DNA of 64,000 nucleotides from [Candidatus Thermochlorobacteriaceae] bacterium GBChlB. Lineage in GTDB: Bacteria; Bacteroidota; Chlorobiia; Chlorobiales; Thermochlorobacteraceae. This document shows, in pieces, positions 57,702-59,257 of the stretch (its first letter is position 1; every line of letters starts with the position of its first letter). Made by a program: the position numbers and the translations under genes. The DNA is taken from contig JPGV01000009.1 of NCBI GenBank assembly GCA_000724175.1, positions 182,342-246,341 on the forward strand, read 5' to 3'. The notes under the pieces were generated by a model, which was given only the letters and a program-made list of their open reading frames with translations, had not been told where the DNA came from and did no database searches.

Positions 57702-58349
57702 TTAATTTTTTTTGCGGAACGGAATTCCGAGTTCTTTCAAAAGCGCGTAGGCTTCTTCATCGTTCTTCGCAGTTGTTACAAATGTTACATCCATGCCTGA
57801 AATGCGCGTTACTTTATCAATATCGATTTCGGGAAAAATAATCTGCTCTTTAACGCCGAGCGTATAATTTCCGCGCCCGTCAAAGCTGCTATCGCTGACG
57901 CCTTTGAAGTCCCGAATGCGTGGAATGGCAAGCGAAATGAGCCTGTCCATAAACTCATACATTTTAGCGCGGCGCAGTGTAACGCGGCAACCAATCGGTT
58001 GGTTTTCGCGCAGCTTGAAGTTCGAGATAGCGTTCTTCGATTTGCGAATCTCCGGCTTTTGTCCCGTGATTTGACCAAGTTCTTTCACGGCGGCTTCTAA
58101 GAGTTTCGGGTCTTGTGCTGCTTCGCCAACACCAATGTTGATGCTGATTTTTTCTAATCGCGGCACCATCATCACGCTTTTGTATTTGAACTGCTCCATG
58201 AGTTTCTTGACGACTTCTTCGCGGTATTTCACGAAGAGACGCGGCGGCGGCGCAGGTTCGTTTGAGAGCGGCACAACCGGAGCCTGTGCTTCCTCTTTCT
58301 TGCCTTTTTGTTTTTTCGGCTCTTGCTTCTTTTGTTCTTTTTCTGCCAT
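57702..58349 (-). CDS. rplE: 50S ribosomal protein L5 with N-terminal extension
   Basis: 215 residues against the usual about 180. The first about 35 residues ([19 protein letters not shown]... ending PPPRLF) are a charged, proline-containing extension. The core has [55 protein letters not shown] and [42 protein letters not shown]. Binds 5S rRNA. Confidence 0.95.
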
Positions 58350-58403
58350 TGCGGTTGCTCGGTTTTGGGAACGGTCTTTGTCGTTCCCGTCGCGTTTGAT
58401 TTA

Positions 58404-58694
58404 CTATCCTCTTCTTAAAATCACGGTTTGTTTTTTACTCGTGCCTTTGATGATTTCCATATTGACGACTTTATCAAAGTGCGGCACGTCGGCTTCGAGC
58501 ATCTCAATAATTTTCATCAAGTCCCGCGTATGCTGCGAAAGCAGCGCATTTGTTTTCGCCTGTTGTTCCTCGAGTTTTTCAACCCTGTTGCTCAAGCCGT
58601 CGGCGCGGTTATTCAGAGTCTTTAGCTCGGTTTTGATGCCGCGCAACTCCTCAACCATAATCGCAAAGTGTTCTAAATACCTGTCGTCTATCAT
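58404..58694 (-). CDS. coiled-coil protein inserted in the spc operon, function unknown
   Basis: 96 residues. The central part (about 15-65) is a heptad-like coiled coil (ELRGIKTELKTLNNRADGLSNRVEKLEEQQAKTNALLSQHTRDLMKII), flanked by MIDDRYLEHFAIM at the N-terminus and the basic KGTSKKQTVILRRG ending. It resembles no ribosomal protein. It sits between rplX and rplE, which are normally adjacent, on the operon's strand (21-bp gap after rplX, 54 bp before rplE). ATG at 58694. It has no signal or membrane segment. Confidence 0.7.
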   Translation of the reverse strand: MIDDRYLEHFAIMVEELRGIKTELKTLNNRADGLSNRVEKLEEQQAKTNALLSQHTRDLMKIIEMLEADVPHFDKVVNMEIIKGTSKKQTVILRRG

Positions 58695-58715
58695 TCGCTC
58701 CTGAAACTCAGGAGG

Positions 58716-58991
58716 TTAGCTCACTCGCTTCACGTTCGAGGCGTGAATGGGAAACTCGCGCTCGATAATTGCGCCTTGCGGCTGATTTTTGTTTGGGCGC
58801 ATGTGTCGCTTGCGAATGTTGACGCCCTCGACGATGACGCGGTTCGTTTCCGGAAAGACGCGCAGCACCTTGCCTTGATAGCCCTTTTCGCGGTCGACAT
58901 TAAGATTTTTTGCTGCCGTAATGTTCTTCAGCAGCACAACTGTGTCGCCTTTCTTGACATGGACTTTTGCTTTTTTAGTTCCCAGTTTCAT
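58716..58991 (-). CDS. rplX: 50S ribosomal protein L24
   Basis: 91 residues, shorter than the usual about 105. VHVKKGDTVVLLKNITAAKN, EKGYQGKVLRVFPETNRVIVEGVNIRKRHMRPN and GAIIEREFPIHASNVKRVS are diagnostic. Preceded on its strand by tRNA-Gly (30 bp) instead of rplN. Confidence 0.96.
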   Translation of the reverse strand: MKLGTKKAKVHVKKGDTVVLLKNITAAKNLNVDREKGYQGKVLRVFPETNRVIVEGVNIRKRHMRPNKNQPQGAIIEREFPIHASNVKRVS

Positions 58992-59021
58992 CGTTCTCGT
59001 TCTGTTTTCTTTTTCCGTTTG

Positions 59022-59094
59022 AGCGGGAGACGGGACTCGAACCCGCGACCAACAGCTTGGAAGGCTGTGACTCTACCAACTGAGTTACTCCCGC
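59022..59094 (-). tRNA. tRNA-Gly (UCC)
   Basis: Minus-strand tRNA: acceptor GCGGGAG/CTCCCGC, D-arm AACTCAGTTGGTAGAGT, anticodon stem-loop ACAGC-CTTCCAA-GCTGT (anticodon TCC), T-arm GCGGGTTCGAGTCCCGT, discriminator T. It lies between rplN and rplX inside the ribosomal operon, in the operon's direction, which is unusual. Confidence 0.97.
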
Positions 59095-59147
59095 TTATCT
59101 GGTTAATTCCATTTTTGAAAAGAACAGTGTTGACACTTTTGCCTGCA

Positions 59148-59195
59148 ACCAACAGCTTGGAAGGCGGTGACTCTACCAGCTCTGGTTACTCCCGC
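59148..59195 (-). pseudogene. degenerate partial copy of the tRNA-Gly
   Basis: Positions 59148-59224 repeat 59048-59123 almost base for base (offset 100-101), including the flank TTATCTGGTTAATTCCATTT. On the minus strand the copy keeps the 5' acceptor GCGGGAG and the CTTCCAA anticodon loop, but the T-arm and 3' acceptor are missing, the D-arm is altered and the anticodon stem has a mismatch (ACCGC against GCTGT). It cannot fold as a tRNA. Confidence 0.88.
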
Positions 59196-59257
59196 TTATC
59201 TGGTTAATTCCATTTTTGAAAAGAGCAATCTGCTTGCGGCGTTCAGTGTTCTATTGC

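Follow-up and report, generated by a model that had tools for sequence, protein, structure and literature searches.

The question raised by this locus is what an additional gene is doing between rplX and rplE. In the window (the whole stretch of DNA that was analysed, 64,000 nucleotides) this part of the spc operon contains the following frames:

58716..58991, minus strand: rplX (uL24), an open reading frame (ORF) located in 59 of the 61 genomes searched
58404..58694, minus strand: gene for a small coiled-coil protein of 96 amino acids, recognised from its ORF, purifying selection relative to the ES-bin-17 copy, its heptad period and an AlphaFold model
57702..58349, minus strand: rplE (uL5), an ORF named from the established L5 sequence and by tblastn to relatives

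The middle frame (96 codons, ATG start) shares its strand with rplX, which lies upstream at a distance of 21 nt, and with rplE, which lies downstream at a distance of 54 nt; the operon-like spacing and direction claimed in an earlier note on this DNA therefore hold. Its synonymous codon choice scored 0.017, where the base-composition null gave -0.27 ± 0.09, and none of 2,000 simulations scored as high. The score was lower than those of all 18 neighbouring ribosomal-operon genes (0.099-0.281, leave-one-out) and of 28 of the 29 other long ORFs in the window, a shortfall which is only suggestive because the gene is short and the standard deviation of the null is 0.09. The frame was confirmed to be a genuine gene and no chance frame; it is coding-like and looks native, yet lacks codon adaptation of the ribosomal-protein type. 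Production at ribosomal-protein levels, which the earlier note had expected, is inferred only, and every one of these neighbours shows better-adapted codon usage.

The rplX-rplE spacers of relatives were read at 30 loci, and in all of them (30/30) a hairpin was seen, which in the window lies between the additional gene and rplE:

58367..58388, minus strand: conserved RNA hairpin 5' of rplE, with stem GGGAACG/CGUUCCC and loop ACAAAGAC, recognised from covariation, position and folding energy

The window copy has a folding energy of -12 kcal/mol (z -2.69), and a near-invariant core, GACMAAGACC, spans the closing pair. In an alignment of 25 sequences 91.5% of cells were paired and two-sided changes were found in 7 of 8 pairs. 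The covariation score was 0.667 compared to 0.297 ± 0.028 in shuffles (0 of 500 as high) and 0.222 in the best slid version, while the count of further pair types showed no excess (14 versus 15.0 in shuffles). A covariance model built from the aligned sequences found one good site in the window genome and matched 85 of the 98 members of the order Chlorobiales and 21 of 296 other Bacteroidota. Position relative to rplX was scored in the 59 genomes in which rplX had been located, a count which includes the sequences that built the model and lies apart from the other 26 order members with a match; the hairpin was 3' of rplX on the same strand in all 59. It started 1-24 nt after rplX in 57 of these, 284 nt after it in the metagenome-assembled genome (MAG) 'Chlorobiales bacterium ES-bin-17' and 322 nt after it in the window genome. 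Displacement from rplX was thus confined to the two genomes which bear an insert, and proximity to rplE was kept in both. The distance to the rplE start was 13-20 nt in 29 of the 30 loci read, the exception being a locus (L030) where the rplE match is split between two frames. At the 28 loci free of an insert the spacer is too short for a gene, in agreement with the earlier statement that rplX and rplE are otherwise adjacent.

Twenty stretches outside this slot, namely matches beyond the order (15 of the 21 genomes) and 5 second-site matches within it, were tested by tblastn with the rplX, rplE and rplN proteins of the window; none of the three genes was near, and the matches were put down to chance. 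Two of the twenty fall at the start of genes beginning MTKTI (short-chain-dehydrogenase-like, by eye) and others are terminator-like. The hairpin was also considered as an upstream peptide (ATGACMAAGACCATY, read as MTKTI), which was rejected because ACG or GTG stands at this place in several genomes, in most cases along with a matching change on the other arm. Separately, a near-identical second hairpin (GGGUGACCAAGAUCACCC and kin) recurs in five genomes of one family (f4; L127-L131), each time between the same pair of genes, radical-SAM-like and oxidoreductase-like by eye, where it is perhaps a terminator.

There was no Rfam match in the window or in six relatives, and no recognised description of either the hairpin or the coiled-coil gene was found in the open-licence PMC literature on rplE leaders, Chlorobi and spc. 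Many ribosomal-protein leaders, though not all, imitate an rRNA site. The core GACMAAGACC is absent from the E. coli rrnB rRNAs, which served as a stand-in as Chlorobiales rRNA was not found in the genomes tried. Two features expected of a leader, a covarying conserved structure and a fixed position 5' of a ribosomal-protein gene, were both observed, and on sequence grounds the hairpin looks like an order-specific ribosomal-protein leader, as a candidate. The E. coli spc operon is repressed by uS8, which acts at the rplE initiation region, and spc regulation in B. subtilis or other species that are not E. coli-like is described as unknown, both according to the sections of PMC10931766 used here. 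The uS8 operator and the Chlorobiales hairpin are alike in being structured RNA at the rplX-rplE junction or rplE initiation region. The uS8 site, as outlined in the part of PMC4176348 drawn upon, has an asymmetric internal loop with seven conserved nucleotides and resembles 16S helix 21, whereas that of Chlorobiales has a plain stem, about 7-8 bp long, closed by an 8-nt terminal loop that hardly varies; no conserved internal loop of the E. coli operator type was found in the 25 aligned sequences. A nearer precedent is the Chlorobi S6:S18 leader candidate, which the excerpted text of PMC7247131 gives as restricted to the phylum, located on a ribosomal-protein mRNA and unlike rRNA. That leader precedes rpsF, whereas the present hairpin precedes rplE, and the main text of PMC7247131 contains no occurrence of rplE, uL5, uS8, uL24 or uL14. 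As a Chlorobi-specific leader without rRNA mimicry is already known, a further, order-specific one is plausible.

The insertion amounts to a natural displacement experiment in two lineages, in which the hairpin was parted from rplX and not from rplE. This points to rplE as the partner and suggests that the hairpin regulates rplE and the genes downstream in cis, in which case the additional gene would have entered on the side that leaves the control intact. The same displacement argues against a reading which we consider possible if doubtful, namely that the hairpin serves solely in the processing or stability of the mRNA, for instance as a site of cleavage or pausing between rplX and rplE. It is a simple hairpin, as such a site might be, and RNA nearby may need processing in any case, around the following gene:

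59021..59094, minus strand: tRNA-Gly(UCC) between rplN and rplX, called by ARAGORN

Of 30 Chlorobiales loci (L029-L058), 29 have this tRNA gene between rplN and rplX, the exception being ES-bin-17, and its place inside a ribosomal-protein operon implies that the transcript is presumably cut there. The nearly invariant loop is suggestive of a specific ligand, however, and the constant distance to the rplE start likewise speaks against a pure processing site. As a putative leader the order-wide covarying hairpin offers a concrete, short and testable candidate for spc control in Chlorobiales.

With regard to the protein encoded by the inserted gene, a hydrophobic period of 3.50 residues, that of a heptad repeat, was found in residues 4-69, and none of 2,000 shuffles was as strong. 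An AlphaFold model (m9224c96d1eb8), built from 3 sequences, gave a single helix over the same residues (block means 82-97 as far as residue 70), followed by a C-terminal beta-hairpin (77-82/90-95) of low confidence (pLDDT about 50-59). The coiled coil of the earlier note is therefore upheld, as is its description of the gene as unfamiliar: no Pfam or NCBIfam family scored above cut-off, and NCBIfam and PHROGs gave weak coil-like matches only. The best Pfam match, Haemolysin XhlA (PF10779), reached 23.3 bits compared to a cut-off of 34.7 and was rejected. A profile search of the PDB returned no sequence relative at E ≤ 0.3, and the best hit of a PDB fold search had an E-value of 4.3, a result which is meaningless because the query is a lone helix. 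The product would most likely be an accessory oligomeric coiled-coil adaptor, any partner being assigned with low confidence.

Homologues were sought in 98 genomes of the order (the class search, E ≤ 0.01), and matches were obtained in three: the window genome, ES-bin-17 and a third (G078), which was marginal (E 0.006, within a 903-aa frame, coil-type), leaving true relatives in 2/98. The window genome has a single copy, its next match (E 0.295) being chance, and the gene is absent from the sister genus of the window's genus. When 394 Bacteroidota genomes were searched at E 1e-3, 7 gave matches; five of these, from one genus (g9, family f4; E 1.5e-4 to 6.8e-4), lie within frames of 572-607 aa and were judged to be chance coils. 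A pattern scan of GTDB genomes with the single protein found no homologue, and with a three-row alignment it found only ES-bin-17 (two loci) and one weak locus in Ignavibacteria. The latter, in MAG CoA_1_bin.73, consists of tandem small coiled-coil genes; the protein has the string KLEEQQAKTN in common with the window protein and is 35% identical to it over 46 residues only, with no common C-terminal part, a likeness for which coil composition could be the explanation. It was tried as a bridge to a wide family and rejected, having a relative at E 1e-5 in just 1 of the 394 genomes. The earlier note had proposed looking for homologues and for conservation of the position in related genomes: homologues do exist and the slot is kept in ES-bin-17, in a set of carriers that comprises only two of the 98 genomes. 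It had also held that a lack of homologues combined with codon usage unlike the neighbours would speak against its reading; the codon usage is indeed somewhat low, and the homologues are there.

ES-bin-17 contains two relatives of the gene. Copy A occupies the same slot between rplX and rplE, on the strand of both. It is shorter by 14 coil residues, exactly two heptads, in frame, and a 10-nt shortening after the residues LEA produces a frameshift, beyond which the conserved C-terminal part is readable in another frame; with a single assembly to go by, the copy may be a young pseudogene or the shift may be an error of assembly. Copy B (L080, 4018-4338) is intact, is 36-37% identical to the window protein and has a heptad period which 3 of 2,000 shuffles equalled. 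It is tightly spaced between a gene similar to methionine-gamma-lyase (a name given by resemblance) and a DUF3467 gene. Conservation across the three sequences is strongest in the motif QxKTNxLLxxHxRDLxxIxxxL.

Comparison of the window gene with copy A over 76 codons in three aligned segments gave a pN of 0.23 and a pS of 0.85, which is saturated. In the same pair of genomes the values were 0.16 and 0.67 for rplE and 0.20 and 0.60 for rplX. Saturated synonymous sites together with a divergence like that of its neighbours indicate that the insertion is old and inherited and that purifying selection has acted on the gene over a time similar to theirs, although the evidence of selection is one pairwise comparison, as there are only two carriers and one is frameshifted. 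The suggestion of a recent insertion is thus not supported, the more so as the same-slot relative belongs to a different family-level lineage. A FastTree phylogeny of five ribosomal proteins from 25 genomes gave the topology (G010,(G000,(G004,(G006,G001)))), where G000 is the window genome and G010 is ES-bin-17; support was modest (0.834) for the clade including ES-bin-17 and 0.999 for that excluding it. On this topology one gain and one loss suffice. The GTDB family labels disagree with the tree, as they place the window genome in f1 with genera g2-g4 and ES-bin-17 in f3, and these labels would call for two losses or a transfer.

The gene is real, old and an orphan, and the neighbouring hairpin is the better lead. 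We think it probable that a lineage-restricted gene entered the spc operon in a common ancestor of the window's genus and the lineage of ES-bin-17, landing between the rplX stop codon and the conserved hairpin 5' of rplE. Vertical inheritance under purifying selection would have followed, with loss in the sister genus and a breakdown now under way in ES-bin-17. Its frameshifted copy there and its absence from the sister genus suggest that it is dispensable. The product would be a homo-oligomeric coiled coil with a small C-terminal beta-hairpin, most likely acting as an accessory adaptor and not as a core component of the ribosome, and the putative leader would have continued to control rplE and the genes after it. 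Such a history would make it a modest case of an orphan small protein gained within a bacterial operon that is among the most conserved.

An unlikely alternative is that the small gene is mobile or a hitch-hiker, an element which duplicates and lands in tightly spaced operons and whose job is unlinked to its neighbours. The two ES-bin-17 copies do lie in unrelated tight operons, between which there is no functional link, and the low codon score would also fit. DUF3467 was present in 12 of 21 genomes searched and the 12 loci were read; in three relatives (G001, G004 and G006) the lyase-like and DUF3467 genes are adjacent with no space for the coiled-coil gene, as expected if copy B had been added there. 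Against mobility, no relative of the protein was found in the phages, plasmids and viral contigs searched, purifying selection is strong, and an identity of only 36-37% between the window gene and copy B implies no recent spread.

Less probable again is a lineage-specific ribosomal protein or assembly factor, which would be produced along with uL24 and uL5 and would attach to the 50S subunit by its basic C-terminal hairpin, a role of the kind proposed in the earlier note. It would suit the tight spacing within the spc operon, the net charge of +4 in the C-terminal 27 residues and an amino-acid divergence like that of rplX, and there is precedent for unannotated lineage-specific ribosomal proteins such as bL38, which is small and lineage-restricted and escaped recognition by sequence until ribosomes themselves were looked at (PMC10618245, as far as the portion cited here describes it). 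That portion gives bL38 beta-strands plus one short helix and places it on 23S H95, whereas the window protein has a 66-residue helix. The retention in a lineage expected of a ribosomal protein was not observed, as the sister genus lacks the gene and the one other class member that has it carries a frameshifted same-slot copy. Copy B adjoins a DUF3467 gene and its tail has a net charge of 0; neither Pfam, NCBIfam nor the PDB profile search linked the window protein to any known ribosomal protein, the best PDB match, archaeal uL29 (E 0.32), being at chance level; and the codon usage is the least adapted in the ribosomal operon. A ribosomal role is possible, weakly supported and unproven, and on balance unlikely.

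It is very unlikely that spc control in Chlorobiales runs through a leader not of the uS8 type and that, in the lineage of the window genome, the protein encoded just upstream has joined this circuit, for example with its basic C-terminal part binding the hairpin and tuning rplE translation. That no gene exists here, only a chance frame within a long untranslated spacer, is scarcely credible, for although a same-slot copy occurs in only one other genome and its frame is broken there, the pS and pN values, the codon null, the heptad shuffles and the intact second paralogue in ES-bin-17 all oppose it.

With respect to expression, no terminator-like site was found on the minus (coding) strand of the rplX-rplE stretch, so that co-transcription of the gene with rplX and rplE is likely. 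A short stem was noted at its 5' junction:

58698..58714, minus strand: hairpin CUCCUGA-GUU-UCAGGAG between the rplX stop and the start codon of the coiled-coil gene, -9.2 kcal/mol, z only -1.15

The z-score of this stem is not significant, and no similar stem was apparent by eye at the corresponding junction of ES-bin-17. Its 3' arm contains the Shine-Dalgarno-like AGGAG of the gene, directly after the rplX stop, so that terminating ribosomes may open the stem and couple translation of the two genes. The AGGAG may matter little, since most Chlorobia mRNAs are SD-less according to the part of PMC9976891 used here. Upstream of rplX, the flank of the tRNA-Gly gene and part of the gene itself are duplicated in tandem (59042-59126 and 59142-59227), the second copy being a degenerate tRNA fragment which ARAGORN left uncalled.
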